Shown in pieces: positions 10,020 through 36,601 of a DNA stretch of 36,601 bases. Each line of letters opens with the position of its first letter. Position 1 is the first letter of the stretch. The position numbers were made by a program, and so were the translations under genes. Where the stretch lies: NCBI GenBank assembly GCA_031268995.1, contig JAIRWK010000116.1:1-36601 (forward strand), written 5' to 3'. The DNA comes from Planctomycetaceae bacterium. Lineage in GTDB: Bacteria > Planctomycetota > Planctomycetia > Pirellulales > Thermoguttaceae. The notes beneath the pieces are model-generated. The model worked only from the letters and a program-made list of their open reading frames with translations, was not told where the DNA came from and did no database searches.

Positions 10020-10124
10020 TATACCGTAGCTGGTATGGGCGATAGGCTTCGCCCATGAGCAACCGCTTCACGTTGTTGCGATCACGTGTTCAGTTTCTGG
10101 AATTCTAAAACCAGCTTTGGTATA
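10020..10124 (+). repeat. Dispersed ~100-bp element, forward copy
   Basis: Begins ATACCGTAGCTGGTATGGGC, carries the GGGCGA-TAGGCT-TCGCCC hairpin and the AACCGCTTCACGTTGTT arm, and ends near CAGCTTTGGTATAT. Lies between the PI-PLC gene end and the flippase start region. Confidence 0.9.
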
Positions 10125-15618: not shown

Positions 15619-15678
15619 CACGCCGAAGCTGTAAGTTGTCAGCGGCGGTTGCTTGACTTTGGGCAACCGTCGCAATTT

Positions 15679-15782
15679 ATACCGTAGCCGGTATGGGCGG
15701 TAGGCTTCGCCCATGAACAACCGCTTCGCGATGCCACGCTTGTGTGTCCAGCTTCGGGGATTTCAAAACAGCTTGAGTATAG
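15679..15782 (+). repeat. Dispersed ~100-bp element, forward copy
   Basis: TATACCGTAGCC... to ...AACAGCTTGAGTATAG, complete with both hairpins. Lies just after the second DUF1559 gene. Confidence 0.93.
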
Positions 15783-17908: not shown

Positions 17909-18234
17909 ATCCTAAAAGTGGTCGATTGTCGTTTAGTGTCTGACTGGAACAAAAAGGACGGCGTTTCATCGCCGTCACAATTTTGAGGGCAAATTTGGAT
18001 ACTGTCCCTTTTGCCCTTAATGTCCTTTTTGTTCCTATACTGAAGCTGTTTTAAAATTCCTGAAGCTGCGGTAAACCTGCAACGCAGAGCATTAGGTAAA
18101 CGCAACAACGAGAAGCGGTTGTTCAAGGGCGAAGCCTATCGCCCTACCGGCTACGGTATAATTCCCCTACCCTGCTCTCCGCCCCAATTAGGCGGCGGCA
18201 TTTACTAAAAAACTTTAACTTAAAAAAATTAAAA
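17909..18234. other. Intergenic gap between Gfo/Idh/MocA and HEAT-DUF1080 genes
   Basis: Contains a GTCCC-rich stretch at about 17996-18036 (ACTGTCCCTTTTGCCCTTAA and following) and a long-form reverse copy of the dispersed element at 18036-18160. No gene seen. Confidence 0.7.
18036..18160 (-). repeat. Dispersed element, long-form reverse copy
   Basis: TATACTGAAGCTGTTTTAAA to GGCTACGGTATA, with the extra segment GGTAAACCTGCAACGCAGAG that distinguishes the ~125-bp form. Confidence 0.92.
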
Positions 18235-20714: not shown

Positions 20715-20840
20715 ATACCGTAGCTAGTATGAGTGTTATACCGTAGCCGGTGGGGCGGTAGCCTTCGCTTCTGAACAACTGCTTCGCGTTGTTGCGCTTG
20801 CGTGTTCAGCTCCATGAATTTTAAAGTAGCTTGAGTATAT
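20715..20840 (+). repeat. Dispersed element, forward copy with duplicated start
   Basis: A first ATACCGTAGCTAGTATGAGT is followed at once by a complete copy beginning TATACCGTAGCCGGTGGGGC and ending AGTAGCTTGAGTATAT. The doubled start suggests insertion beside or within an older copy. It lies 26 nt before the corrinoid-protein start codon. Confidence 0.9.
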
Positions 20841-21632: not shown

Positions 21633-21737
21633 ATATACTCAAGCTACTTTAAAATTCATGGAGCTGAACACGCAAGCGCGACAACGTGAAGCGATTGTTC
21701 AGGGGCGAAGCCTACCGCCCATACCGGCTTCGGTATA
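21633..21737 (-). repeat. Dispersed ~100-bp element, reverse copy
   Basis: TATACTCAAGCTACTTTAAA to GGCTTCGGTATAAC, complete. Confidence 0.93.
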
Positions 21738-22970: not shown

Positions 22971-23076
22971 TTATACCTCAGCCAATACGGGCAATAGGCT
23001 TTGCCCTTGAACAACCGCTTCAAATTTGTACGATTGCGTGTTCAGCTTCAGGAATTTTAAAACAATTTGATTATAG
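22971..23076 (+). repeat. Dispersed ~100-bp element, forward copy
   Basis: TATACCTCAGCCAATACGGG to AACAATTTGATTATAG; slightly diverged but complete. It lies directly upstream of the minus-strand agmatinase gene, and its reverse strand reads MKRLFKGKAYCPYWLRY in frame with that gene. Confidence 0.88.
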
Positions 23077-24623: not shown

Positions 24624-24726
24624 TATACTGAAGCTACTTTAAAATTCTTGAAGCTGAACCTGCAATCGCAACAACGTGAAGCGGTTATTCAATGGCGAAG
24701 CCTACCGCCCTACCGGCTACGGTATA
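24624..24726 (-). repeat. Dispersed ~100-bp element, reverse copy
   Basis: TATACTGAAGCTACTTTAAA to GGCTACGGTATA, complete, directly beside the preceding hairpin. Confidence 0.93.
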
Positions 24727-24885: not shown

Positions 24886-24989
24886 TATGCTCAAGCCGGT
24901 ATGGGCGGTAGGCTTCGTCCCTGAACAACCGCCTCACGTTGTTACGCTTCCGTGTTCAGCTTCGGAATTTTAAAGTGGCTTGTGTATAA
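24886..24989 (+). repeat. Dispersed ~100-bp element, forward copy
   Basis: GTATGCTCAAGCCGGTATGG to AGTGGCTTGTGTATAAG. The first bases look like a hybrid of the two ends. It lies 42 nt before glyA. Confidence 0.88.
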
Positions 24990-26351: not shown

Positions 26352-26478
26352 TATATGCTCAAGCTGTTTTAAAATTCCTGAAGCTGAGGTAAACCTGCAA
26401 CACAGAGCGTTAAGCAAACGCAACAATGTGAAGCGGTTGTTCAAGGGCGAAGCCTGTCGCCCACACCGGCTTCGGTAC
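26352..26478 (-). repeat. Dispersed element, long-form reverse copy
   Basis: TATATGCTCAAGCTGTTTTA to CCGGCTTCGGTAC, with the extra GGTAAACCTGCAACACAGAG segment. Confidence 0.92.
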
Positions 26479-26642
26479 AGCCATTTTTATTTGCGTACAT
26501 TGTGCATAAATTTCGGTAGAGTATAATGCGGCGGTTGTTGGTAGTGAGGCAAAGGCACTTTGACTAAGACATCGCCCAAAAATAATTTTCCCCAAATAAA
26601 AAAGTGGCAATTGGTGTGATTGTTTAGAAGAAACTTCCCAAA

Positions 26643-26769
26643 TTATACTCAAGCTGTTTTAAAATTCCAGAAGCTGAGGTAAACCTGCAACGCAGAGCGT
26701 TAAGCAAGCGCAACAACGTGAAGCGGTTGTTCAAGGGCGAAGCCTGCCGCCCATACCGGCTTCGGTATA
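26643..26769 (-). repeat. Dispersed element, long-form reverse copy
   Basis: TTATACTCAAGCTGTTTTAA to CCGGCTTCGGTATA; closely similar to the 26352-26478 copy, including GTTAAGCAAGCGCAACAACG. Confidence 0.93.
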
Positions 26770-26870
26770 TTCGTAACAATTGGAAACGAAACAAATTTGT
26801 TTCCGATTGCTTTTCCAATTTTTTTGTAACCACTAGACGGTATGAAAAACTTAATACCGAATCAATCATC

Positions 26871-27446
26871 ATGGCAATTTCACTTACAAAAGGACAAAAT
26901 GTTTCGTTGAGCGAAGCAGCTCCTGGGTTGAATAAAATCAAGATAGGTCTTGGTTGGGATGTTCGTGCGACACAAGGTTCGGCGTTTGATTTGGATGCTT
27001 CGGCGTTTTTGTTGAACGAATCCGGCAGAGTCCGCAGTGCCGCCGATTTCATTTTTTATAACCAATCAAAATCGACGTGCGGCAGTGTCGCTTACATGGG
27101 CGATAACCGAACCGGCGAAGGTGAAGGCGACGATGAAGAAATTCTCGTAACCTTAAATTCCGTTCCGGCAGATGTGCAAAAAATTGTCTTCACGGTAACA
27201 ATTCACGAAGGCGAAAAAAACGGTCAAAATTTCGGTCAAGTGAGTAGAGCGTTTATTCGGATTGTCAATCTTGACGGCAATGAAGAGATCGCCCGATTTG
27301 ATCTTTCGGAAGATGCCAGTACAAGTATAACAATGATATTTGGCGAACTTTACCGCCACAACGGCGCATGGAAATTTCGTGCAGTTGGACAAAGTTTATC
27401 GGGCGGACTTGAAGTAGTTGCCAAACAATACGGTGTACCGCTTTAA
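26871..27446 (+). CDS. terD: TerD-family protein
   Basis: Protein of 191 aa from ATG 26871 (MAISLTKGQNVSLSEAAPGL), the usual TerD start. Conserved features are IGLGWDVR, FDLDASAFLLN with calcium-binding acidic residues, YMGDNRTGEGEGDDEEI and the matching acidic beta-strands that follow, VQKIVFTVTIHEG, FARFDLSED-type motif and ELYRHNGAWKFRAVGQ. TerD domains bind Ca2+ and belong to tellurite-resistance/stress systems whose biochemical role is debated. Here it heads a plus-strand series with radical-SAM and AAA+ genes, unlike the usual terZABCDE row. Upstream is a dispersed repeat ending about 100 nt away. Confidence 0.93.
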   Translation: MAISLTKGQNVSLSEAAPGLNKIKIGLGWDVRATQGSAFDLDASAFLLNESGRVRSAADFIFYNQSKSTCGSVAYMGDNRTGEGEGDDEEILVTLNSVPADVQKIVFTVTIHEGEKNGQNFGQVSRAFIRIVNLDGNEEIARFDLSEDASTSITMIFGELYRHNGAWKFRAVGQSLSGGLEVVAKQYGVPL

Positions 27447-27476: not shown

Positions 27477-27572
27477 ATATACCGAAGCCGGTATGGGCGG
27501 TAGGTTTCGTCCTTGAACAACCGCTTCGCGATGTTATGCTTGCGTAATCAGCTTTAAAACAGCTTGAGTATA
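27477..27572 (+). repeat. Dispersed ~100-bp element, forward copy
   Basis: ATATACCGAAGCCGGTATGG to AACAGCTTGAGTATA. It ends 4 nt before the next start codon, so it forms the whole immediate 5' leader of the radical-SAM gene. Confidence 0.93.
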
Positions 27573-28237: not shown

Positions 28238-28333
28238 TGTACTAAAGCTACATTAAAGTTGAACACGGAAGCGCAACAACGTGAAGCGGTTGTTCAAGGG
28301 CGAAGCCTGCCGCCCATACCGGCTCCGGCATAA
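28238..28333 (-). repeat. Dispersed element, reverse copy
   Basis: TACTAAAGCTACATTAAAGT to CCGGCTCCGGCATAAC; the stretch between the TTTAAA-like word and GAACACGG is shortened. Confidence 0.88.
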
Positions 28334-29697: not shown

Positions 29698-29822
29698 AAT
29701 ACCGCAGCCGGTAGGGCGATAGGTTTCGTCCTTGAACAACCGCTTCACGTTGCTACGCTTGCCTAACGCTTTGTGTTGCAGGAGTACCGTAGCTCTATGA
29801 ATTTTAAAGTAGCTTGAGTGCA
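29698..29822 (+). repeat. Dispersed element, long-form forward copy
   Basis: AATACCGCAGCCGGTAGGGC to AGTAGCTTGAGTGCATAC; has GCCTAACGCTTTGTGTTGCA as the reverse complement of the long-form extra segment. It ends 10 nt before the AAA+ start codon. Confidence 0.92.
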
Positions 29823-33321: not shown

Positions 33322-33453
33322 CCTACCCTGCGGGCAAAAAATTTTTTTTGAAATTTCTAATGTATGGCACAATATCGCTTGATATATACCTGAGCTACTT
33401 TATACTGATCGTTTAAGGCTCTTGATCGTGTAGAACCTTAACACTTCAAACAA

Positions 33454-33556
33454 TATACCGTAGCCGATAGGGCGATAGGCTTCGCCCTTGGGCAACCGCT
33501 TCACGTTGTTGCGATTGCGTGTTCAGCTTCGGGAATTTAAAAACAGCTTGAGTATA
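33454..33556 (+). repeat. Dispersed ~100-bp element, forward copy
   Basis: ATATACCGTAGCCGATAGGG to AACAGCTTGAGTATAAT. It lies 8 nt upstream of the ATG at 33565 and is inverted relative to the copy inside the following coding region. Confidence 0.93.
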
Positions 33557-33564
33557 ATAATAAA

Positions 33565-34713
33565 ATGTTAAAAACTAAAAAAACACAAAAAAGCAAAATA
33601 GGCGATAGCGTTTCTACTGAGGCTGTTTTAAAACTCCCGAAGTTGGATACGGAATCGCAACAACGTGAAGCGGTTGTTAAAGGGCGAAGCCTACCGCCCA
33701 TACCGGCGTCGGTATCACGTCGTAATTTTTGTTACAAAATTGCGAGTTGTGGGATTGTCGGTGGAATTTTGGCAAGTACGTTGCGTGAAAAATCCGACCG
33801 CCCAAAAATATTCGCCAACGAAACCACACAAACGACAACAACAACAACAACAACAACCCAAACCTCCGGCGCAAGAACCGGAAATCTTATCGGTGTTTCT
33901 ACTTATTCATTTTGGCATTTTGAAAAAGAAGAAGTTCCGATTGAAAAATGTATTGACCTTGCGGCAAAATTCGGTTTTGATGCGGTTGAAATCCTTGAAG
34001 TGCAAATGACCAAAAGAGACCCCAAAACAATCGCCGAAATCAAACGTCAAACTTTGTCTCGCGGACTTTTTCTTTGTGGGCTTTCAACTCATCAGACTTT
34101 CGTATCGCCCGATTCGGAAATCCGCCAAACCAATATTGACAAAACGAAACAAAGTATTGAACTGGCTCACAATCTTGGCATTCCTACGATTCGCGTAAAT
34201 ACCGGTAGATGGAGTACAACAAAAACATTCGATGACTTAATGAAAAATCGCGGAGTTGAGCCGCCGTTGGAGGGTTACACGGACGAGGACGGTTTTCCTT
34301 GGGTGATTGATTCGTTTAGAAAATTAGTGCCGTTTGCGGAGGCGGCGGGAGTAGTGATGGGGCTTGAGAATCATTGGGGGCTTGGCAGCACACCCGAGGG
34401 CGTTCTCAAAATTGTCGATGCCGTCAACTCGCCATACCTGCAAGTTACCGCCGACACCGGTAATTTTTTTGAAGATTATTATGCCAAATTTGAAAAGCTA
34501 GTTCCCAAAGCCGTACTTGTTCAAACTAAAACATATTTTGGCGGCGGGAAATGGTATTCTCTTGAGATTGACTATGACAAAATTGCTGAGATATTGCAAA
34601 AACATAATTATCGCGGTTTTATTTCGCTAGAGTTTGAAGGCAATGAACCACCCGAAATCGCCGTCCCCAAAAGCCTGTCAATGCTAAGATCAAAATTCAA
34701 ATTCAAAAAATAA
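33565..34713 (+). CDS. Tat-exported sugar isomerase/epimerase-like protein with repeat-derived N-terminus
   Basis: Protein of 382 aa. Residues about 18-50 are encoded by an in-frame reverse copy of the dispersed element (KLDTESQQREAVVKGRSLPP and so on). Straight after it comes a Tat signal, SRRNFCYKIASCGIVGGIL, with twin Arg 52-53. No ATG, GTG or TTG lies in frame between repeat and twin arginine, so translation must start in or before the repeat; ATG 33565 is the likely start. Residues about 95-380 form a TIM barrel of the AP-endonuclease-2/xylose-isomerase-like family (FGFDAVEILEVQMTKRD, GLENHWGLGSTPEG, TADTGNFFEDYYAKFEKL, FISLEFEGNE with likely metal ligands). A Ser/Thr/Gln-rich linker follows the signal. 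Substrate unknown. Confidence 0.85.
   Translation: MLKTKKTQKSKIGDSVSTEAVLKLPKLDTESQQREAVVKGRSLPPIPASVSRRNFCYKIASCGIVGGILASTLREKSDRPKIFANETTQTTTTTTTTTQTSGARTGNLIGVSTYSFWHFEKEEVPIEKCIDLAAKFGFDAVEILEVQMTKRDPKTIAEIKRQTLSRGLFLCGLSTHQTFVSPDSEIRQTNIDKTKQSIELAHNLGIPTIRVNTGRWSTTKTFDDLMKNRGVEPPLEGYTDEDGFPWVIDSFRKLVPFAEAAGVVMGLENHWGLGSTPEGVLKIVDAVNSPYLQVTADTGNFFEDYYAKFEKLVPKAVLVQTKTYFGGGKWYSLEIDYDKIAEILQKHNYRGFISLEFEGNEPPEIAVPKSLSMLRSKFKFKK
33617..33715 (-). repeat. Dispersed element, reverse copy inside a coding region
   Basis: CTGAGGCTGTTTTAAAACTC to CCGGCGTCGGTATC. It is read in the host gene's frame without stops; the final TATA of other copies is TATCA here, which avoids the TAA that would otherwise end the frame. 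Confidence 0.92.
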
Positions 34714-35130: not shown

Positions 35131-35228
35131 TTATACCGAAACCGGTGATAGCAATAGGCTTCGCCCTCGAACAACCGCTCACGTTGTTACGTTTGCGTGT
35201 TCCGGTTTCGGGGATTTTAAACTGTCTG
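35131..35228 (+). repeat. Dispersed element, forward copy
   Basis: TTATACCGAAACCGGTGATA to GGGATTTTAAACTGTCTG; the last part differs from other copies. Confidence 0.85.
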
Positions 35229-35269
35229 CACTTTAAATTTCGGCGGCTGTCGTACCCCAACTAACTAAT

Positions 35270-35372
35270 ATACCGTAGCTGGTAAGGCGATAGGCTTCGC
35301 CCAGGAACAACCGCTTCACGTTGTTGCGCTTGCGAGTTCCGCTCCATGAATTTTAAGGTAGCTTGAGTATAA
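35270..35372 (+). repeat. Dispersed ~100-bp element, forward copy
   Basis: TATACCGTAGCTGGTAAGGC to GGTAGCTTGAGTATAAC; complete, in direct orientation about 40 nt after the previous copy. Confidence 0.93.
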
Positions 35373-36049: not shown

Positions 36050-36151
36050 GTACGCTCAAGCCGGTTTAATTTCCCAAAACCAGACACGCAAGCATAACAT
36101 TACGAAGCGGTTGTTCAAGGATAAACCCTACCACCCACCAGCTACGGTATA
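36050..36151 (-). repeat. Dispersed element, reverse copy
   Basis: GTACGCTCAAGCCGGTTTAA to CCAGCTACGGTATAG; diverged, but the order is kept. Confidence 0.8.
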
Positions 36152-36312: not shown

Positions 36313-36415
36313 TTATACCGTAGCCGGTAGGGCGATAGGCTTCGCCCTTGAACAACCGCTTCACGTTGTTACGCTTACGTGTTCAGTTTCAGGAATTTTA
36401 AAGTAGCTTGAGTAT
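36313..36415 (+). repeat. Dispersed ~100-bp element, forward copy
   Basis: TTATACCGTAGCCGGTAGGG to AGTAGCTTGAGTATAAA; a complete, near-consensus copy. Confidence 0.94.
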
Positions 36416-36601
36416 AAATTGTTAAATTTCATTTGATTTCCTTACTAGCCACCATAAATAAACAAGAGAATACAACAAAATTAAAAGGTAACTATTCAGT
36501 AGCCTAAAAAGATTTATACTAAAGGAGTTAAATCCTATTACCGATTTGTTGTAAATTTAACGATCAAATCCATAATTGCTTAAATATTAGCAGCTTAGGT
36601 T

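Follow-up and report, generated by a model that had tools for sequence, protein, structure and literature searches.

A 100-bp MITE read in frame ahead of the twin-arginine motif of a predicted exported sugar-isomerase-like protein in a planctomycete bacterium

Short repeats that are translated as part of proteins have been described in several groups of bacteria. The Rickettsia palindromic elements (RPEs) (Ogata et al. 2000, 2002) are 100–150 bp in length, have terminal inverted repeats, and are present both in intergenic DNA and in frame within conserved genes. According to reviews, their inserts are solvent-exposed and one RPE frame encodes a recognisable peptide (PMC10969869, PMC2229807, PMC3767692). 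In-frame fusions of Correia (107 bp), ERIC, and Yersinia YPAL repeats in bacterial genes have also been reported (Delihas 2007, PMC2229807), and the signal peptide of Yersinia YPO1552 is partly formed by a MITE (PMC2229807). Protein-coding palindromes have been known in Rickettsia since 2000, and how they move and how they come to land in frame have stayed open questions.

Here we investigate a repeat that is read in frame in a Planctomycetaceae bacterium. The window, which is the whole stretch of 36,601 nucleotides that was analysed, contains an open reading frame at 33565–34713 (+) for a 382 aa protein with a xylose-isomerase-like TIM barrel (PF01261, E = 1.7e-34) and a predicted Tat-type export signal. 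The frame begins with MLKTKKTQKSKIGDSV (33565–33612, +), identified from excision reconstruction and orthologue starts as the probable original start and n-region. This is followed by the left copy of a target-site duplication, TC (33613–33614, +), the 100-bp MITE proper, read in its reverse frame 0 (33615–33714, -), and the right copy of TC (33715–33716, +), which forms bases 1 and 2 of the Ser codon before the twin arginines. The twin-arginine motif S-R-R-N-F (33715–33729, +) is kept in orthologues, and the hydrophobic part of the Tat signal, CYKIASCGIVGGILAST (33730–33780, +), was delimited from the sequence, the orthologue comparison, and the excision reconstruction. The AP_endonuc_2 TIM-barrel domain covers aa 130–376 (33952–34692, +), as placed by a domain match and a high-confidence model. 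In the model of the focal protein the barrel folds well, with high confidence, and residues 1–99 do not. Between the Tat signal and the barrel is a Thr-rich stretch (TTQTTTTTTTTTQT, 33820–33870), which is shorter in the orthologues.

An earlier note on this DNA had placed a reverse copy of the repeat at about codons 18–50, and this was accurate. Codons 17–51 (33613–33716) are a reverse copy of 104 bp, with no indel and 15 mismatches to the consensus. A whole-genome search with this stretch returned 55 matches, the best other copy having E = 1.6e-35, and the match of the focal stretch to the repeat is far beyond chance. The twin arginines were also correctly said to follow directly, since SRRNF comes at once and there is no in-frame ATG or GTG between the copy and the arginines. 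At the left end the focal copy has TCTACT, compared to TATACT in others, which together with TATCA at the right end gives the TC...TC target-site duplication. The TATCA had been properly read at the end where most copies have TATA(N), but it reflects the Ser codon into which the element inserted and is not, as had been suggested, a change that keeps the frame open.

The repeat is a MITE of 100 bp, or 104 bp including the 2-bp target duplication on each side. Its consensus has 104 columns (TATACCG...GAGTATA) and sharp edges, outside which the flanks fall to background immediately. The terminal inverted repeats are present and imperfect (TACCGAAGC vs TACTCAAGC), the length is within 100–150 bp, and the folding energy is weakly better than that of shuffles (z -1.1 and -2.3). 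Copy lengths peak at 103 and 104 bp, with a lesser form of 125/126 bp; overall, the 103-bp form, which shifts the frame, is about as common as the 104-bp form, which keeps it. A profile search of 101 contigs or stretches of the genome, 1.025 Mb in total, identified 609 whole or partial copies. Extrapolation from contigs not chosen for hits gives a load of ~2,460 copies, making up 5.5% of the bases of the 4.2-Mb genome. Roughly one quarter of the genome underlies these counts, and the assembly is fragmented and 86% complete. The distribution in relatives is patchy. Matches at E 0.001 were found in 7 of the 60 genomes searched, six of which are within the genus (the bacterium's own, G102, G097, G099, G109, and G103) while the seventh, a weak match, is from another genus. 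The MITE is also present in G116, a genome of the sister genus, where a copy (L187:707–810) is in frame upstream of a Tat-like protein (SRRTFLKLG), but with an ATG between the two.

The window has 23 MITE hits. Copies are present on the forward strand at 10020–10124, 15678–15781, 20737–20839, 22973–23074, 24888–24988, 27478–27572, 29699–29820, 35132–35227, 35269–35371, and 36314–36416, and on the reverse strand at 18036–18160 (long form, ~125 bp), 21634–21737, 24624–24726, 26354–26478 (long form), 28239–28331, and 36052–36150 (diverged). A further long-form copy of 126 bp (26644–26769, -) is in frame near the N-terminus of the open reading frame at 26628–27443. An Rfam search of the window matched no known RNA family. 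Other repeats in the window include a tandem array of a 28-bp unit (148–287) and recurrent TGTCCCT-like units, a second repeat type of this genome (15796–15831, 17996–18046, 21558–21611, and 22003–22047).

Are these copies the result of transposition? Among 309 tabulated full copies whose inner ends are intact, 10 pairs of identical non-TA dinucleotides were found just outside the two ends of the MITE, against 0.93 expected. The matching non-TA pairs of 13 full copies are GA (9), TC (2), AA (1), and CA (1). Two copies are nested, each having entered another copy at CTT-GA-ACAACC, and the GA of CTTGAACAACC is found again on either side (L048:1454–1557 and L119:11464–11567, each at the same internal GA and each with a GA duplication). 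An empty site is available for aroA, where G109 has GAA TAT CGT and the genome studied here has GAA TA-[100 bp]-TAT CGT. From the matching end dinucleotides, the nested copies, and the aroA empty site it follows that the element is 100 bp and that its insertion duplicates 2 bp, so that each event adds 102 bp net.

The genome contains broken transposase genes of the IS630 family (DDE_3), and the HTH_33 domain was found as well. The DDE_3 remnants have ...AAATCTAAAACAGCTTGAGTATA at their 3' ends, and the 5' end that is best preserved is TATACCGTAGCTACTATG; the MITE end sequences set against these remnant ends are TTTTAAAACAGCTTGAGTATA and TATACCGTAGCCGGTATG. The terminal bases common to the MITE and the DDE_3/HTH_33 copies are 15 of 18 at the 5' end and 20 of 22 at the 3' end. 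Judged from these sequences, it is very probable that IS630-family transposases moved the MITE, presumably acting in trans. No intact IS630 copy was seen, all of the DDE_3 copies found being broken or truncated and several of their 3' ends lying at contig edges. Nor was there in the sample a complete autonomous element flanked by partial MITE hits, and the partner was traced via the DDE_3 remnants instead. A REP/RAYT origin was also considered and was rejected on finding 0 Y1_Tnp matches in the genome of this bacterium; of the 40 genomes searched, 29 have such a gene.

What did the focal gene look like before the insertion? Excision of the focal 100 bp and one TC joins MLKTKKTQKSKIGDSV to SRRNFCYKIASCG, an ordinary Tat signal that starts at the present ATG. 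The excised sequence, ATG...GATAGCGTTTCACGTCGTAATTTT, reads in frame as MLKTKKTQKSKIGDSVSRRNF, and its junction, GAT AGC GTT TCA CGT CGT AAT TTT, is in frame with the present ATG (MLKTKKTQKSKIGDSVSRRNFCYKIASCGIVGGILAST). The n-region left after excision, MLKTKKTQKSKIGDSV-SRRNF, is uninterrupted and lysine-rich and requires no deletion. Since excision restores an in-frame Tat signal with the present ATG, the n-region appears to have existed already when the element entered it, and the start was most probably retained. On this reconstruction, the present ATG with its 16 codons is most likely older than the copy, which did not replace a start. The earlier note had proposed the opposite, with the repeat taking the place of the original start; the present ATG would then lie in formerly upstream DNA. 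The orthologue n-regions do vary, with about 4–24 residues before SRR, and no conservation can be recognised in the 16 residues ahead of the copy. However, the intact n-region recovered on removal of the element and one TC goes against start replacement, as do the in-gene copies of L133 and L140, which have TC...TC ends as in the focal copy, and we regard it as highly improbable. The proposed lengthening of the n-region did occur, although the gain is 34 codons rather than about 50 residues. An in-frame TTG (33643) is present inside the focal copy, 78 bases downstream of the ATG, and its use would mean that the element gave the gene a new start and is itself only partly translated. This too is very unlikely, given the intact-frame ATG 78 bases upstream of the TTG that matches the pre-insertion gene.

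The orthologues in G111, G109, G106, and G117 are 75–79% identical to the focal protein, align with it only from residue 48/49, and lack the repeat. Their N-termini are MKKLLNANIELSRQNNYRNNKSKLSRRNF (G111), MTTNNSQSNNLSRRNF (G109), MKTNSISRRHF (G117), and MRTISRRKF (G106). The Tat motif S/T-R-R-x-F and a hydrophobic stretch are present in the orthologues (SRRNF, SRRHF, or SRRKF), with RR invariant in 11 sequences. For distant relatives in the Bacteroidota and Planctomycetota, the alignment begins only at ~residue 44 or later. Orthologues are about equally close in the Planctomycetota and the Bacteroidota; the genome also contains planctomycete-type genes such as that for a DUF1559 pilin, and taken together these make the Planctomycetota the probable phylum. 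The suggestion of an RPE-like in-frame insertion before the Tat motif is borne out by the absence of the repeat in the four orthologues and by dozens of other genes that have been hit likewise.

Segments encoded by the repeat are indeed present in many proteins of this genome, as a search that had been proposed for them found. Full MITE copies in open frames of at least 200 codons number 39 in the sample, and 33 of the 39 are exactly 104 bp and read in frame. From 21 such in-gene copies in 0.75 Mb of contigs not chosen for hits, ~118 are extrapolated genome-wide, where open reading frames were taken without a gene-caller filter and several in-gene cases beyond the named conserved genes are open frames alone. 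In a frame-blind test, 20 copies were flanked on each side by 100 or more open codons of a single strand. Of these, 18 are 104-mers, all in frame and open, and none of the copies was flanked by open stretches in different frames. The 104-mers are 129 of the 420 full copies (31%), compared to 18 of 20 in the frame-blind set (binomial P = 6e-8). That in-gene copies are almost only of the frame-keeping length indicates selection on reading frames. Three MITE reading frames are used in genes, one for each codon phase of the 2-bp target.

The genes with the MITE in frame include aroA, uvrA, mnmE, ubiD, a histidine kinase, a short-chain dehydrogenase (SDR), and several signal peptides. In aroA, encoding EPSP synthase (L043:2091–3728, -), there are two in-frame copies, one of them mid-enzyme. 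AroA aligns with its best solved homologue without gaps up to residue 182 and again from residue 216, and the aroA insert is absent in 14 aligned orthologues. AroA is modelled with confidence (pTM 0.84), and the insert is the main stretch of low confidence in the model (118–151), although this would be expected either way because the orthologues lack the insert. A second EPSP-synthase-like gene (39% identical) is present on contig C3. Two in-frame copies are also found in mnmE (L044:3864–5330, -), one nearly intact and one strongly diverged, and both are absent in the G109 orthologue. Near the N-terminus, ahead of a hydrophobic targeting stretch, are 12 of the 33 in-frame 104-bp copies, for example MRTIV[34 aa]TLIIVFFVPLFFSGC.

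Selection on the encoded peptide was also considered. Main-frame mismatches by codon position are alike in the in-gene (65/46/52) and intergenic (156/115/129) copies, and with equal codon-position profiles this explanation was rejected. No sign of a benefit of the insert was seen in the data analysed, namely the in-gene and intergenic codon-position profiles.

Is the focal gene active, or is it silent? A second MITE copy of 103 bp (33454–33556, +), inverted to the focal copy, ends 8 bp before the ATG. If both copies (33454–33556 and 33613–33716) are transcribed, a very stable hairpin is predicted (-156 kcal/mol, z -18.7), the loop of which would hold the ATG, and this could lower translation. 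Enclosure of the start codon by so long a predicted hairpin would be in keeping with a silent gene or a pseudogene, in which the copy merely happens, for the time being, to leave the frame open. Against this, there is no stop or frameshift across the 382 codons despite 15 differences from the consensus in the 104 bp of the copy, in-gene copies genome-wide are almost only of the frame-preserving length, and the TIM barrel is intact in the model. A silent gene therefore seems unlikely. Comparison of the focal gene with its orthologues shows a conserved gene body, with dN of 0.12–0.16 and dS of at least 1.5, values which are pairwise and old and are no proof of activity since the insertion.

Alternatively, the inverted pair may be an RNA switch or an RNase III site that controls the gene, with coding being secondary. 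The ATG would sit in the loop of a predicted stem of about 90 pairs, there is a promoter-like match upstream (33379–33406) that is barely above shuffles, and action of this kind has been reported for NEMIS/Correia repeats (PMC2229807). However, close neighbour copies are common in this genome, with 21 inverted and 75 direct pairs within 150 bp, and another promoter-like match at the end of the first copy (33537–33566), likewise barely above shuffles, would exclude the stem from the mRNA. We consider control by the inverted pair possible, though rather doubtful.

We believe it very likely that a 100-bp MITE moved by IS630 landed in frame in the focal n-region and added 34 residues to a protein that is predicted to be exported, with a near neutral outcome. 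The element would be non-autonomous and would have been moved by an IS630-family (Tc1/mariner-like) transposase that duplicates a 2-bp target, which is usually TA and sometimes GA/TC. As 100 bp plus a 2-bp duplication is 102 bp, or 34 codons, the common 104-bp form never shifts the frame. One strand of the MITE is open for each of the three codon phases of the 2-bp target, so that a copy within a gene would simply be translated. The focal copy would have inserted into the Ser codon just before the twin arginines (GTT/TC/ACGTCG), so that the 34 gained residues separate the existing start from the Tat motif. The protein is most likely still made and still targeted to Tat export, its n-region being longer and unstructured. 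The insert would then be lost with the signal peptide, leaving the mature enzyme unchanged and the insertion nearly neutral; the protein is presumably expressed, exported, and unharmed.

The simplest reading is of a selfish element with a length that happens to keep frames, where selection removes the frame-breaking insertions. It is also conceivable, but not probable, that the element evolved gene tolerance, with the 34-codon form open in three phases spreading as silent inserts in more than 100 proteins, some of which later became longer targeting regions.

The same phenomenon as in Rickettsia is seen in an unrelated lineage and on a far larger scale. Here the target duplication can be read, as can empty sites and the terminal sequences of the presumed partner transposon. 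Does the frame bias come from selection after random insertion? This can now be tested, the 103- and 104-bp forms being a natural experiment, as can whether the inserted peptides ever acquire function. For annotation there is a warning, in that 'novel' N-terminal extensions or inserts in this clade can be transposon-derived. The genome is a clear and testable case of jumping DNA that is read as protein.

Compared with the known systems, REP/REPIN elements with RAYT are similarly short, abundant, and hairpin-forming, but there is no Y1_Tnp gene here. To our knowledge REPs have not been described as duplicating their target, unlike this MITE. With IS630/Tc1-mariner MITEs there is a match of both ends to IS630 copies, a mostly TA 2-bp duplication, the lack of a transposase of its own, and short imperfect inverted repeats. 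The differences are the use of GA/TC targets as well, the very high copy number, and that no intact IS was seen; the MITE shares the tested features of IS630-derived MITEs apart from an active transposase, for which only broken or truncated DDE_3 copies were found. A literature search for IS630 MITEs in frame in genes returned no matching report. Like the Correia, ERIC, and YPAL repeats, it is a short MITE translated in frame within bacterial genes, whereas here the copy is within a Tat n-region and many copies are mid-enzyme in conserved proteins. In contrast to the 44 RPE integrations reported for R. conorii, there are ~2,460 copies here. The RPE target duplication is listed as unknown in a review, while for this element a transposase family can be named, and a duplication and empty sites can be pointed to. 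Three frames are used that match the phases of the 2-bp target, and the organism is not rickettsial. Membership of the RPEs is not claimed, the likeness being drawn from descriptions of them. In the manner of its occurrence, however, this MITE appears to work as the RPEs do, being also short, bounded by terminal inverted repeats, and present both in intergenic DNA and in frame inside conserved protein genes.
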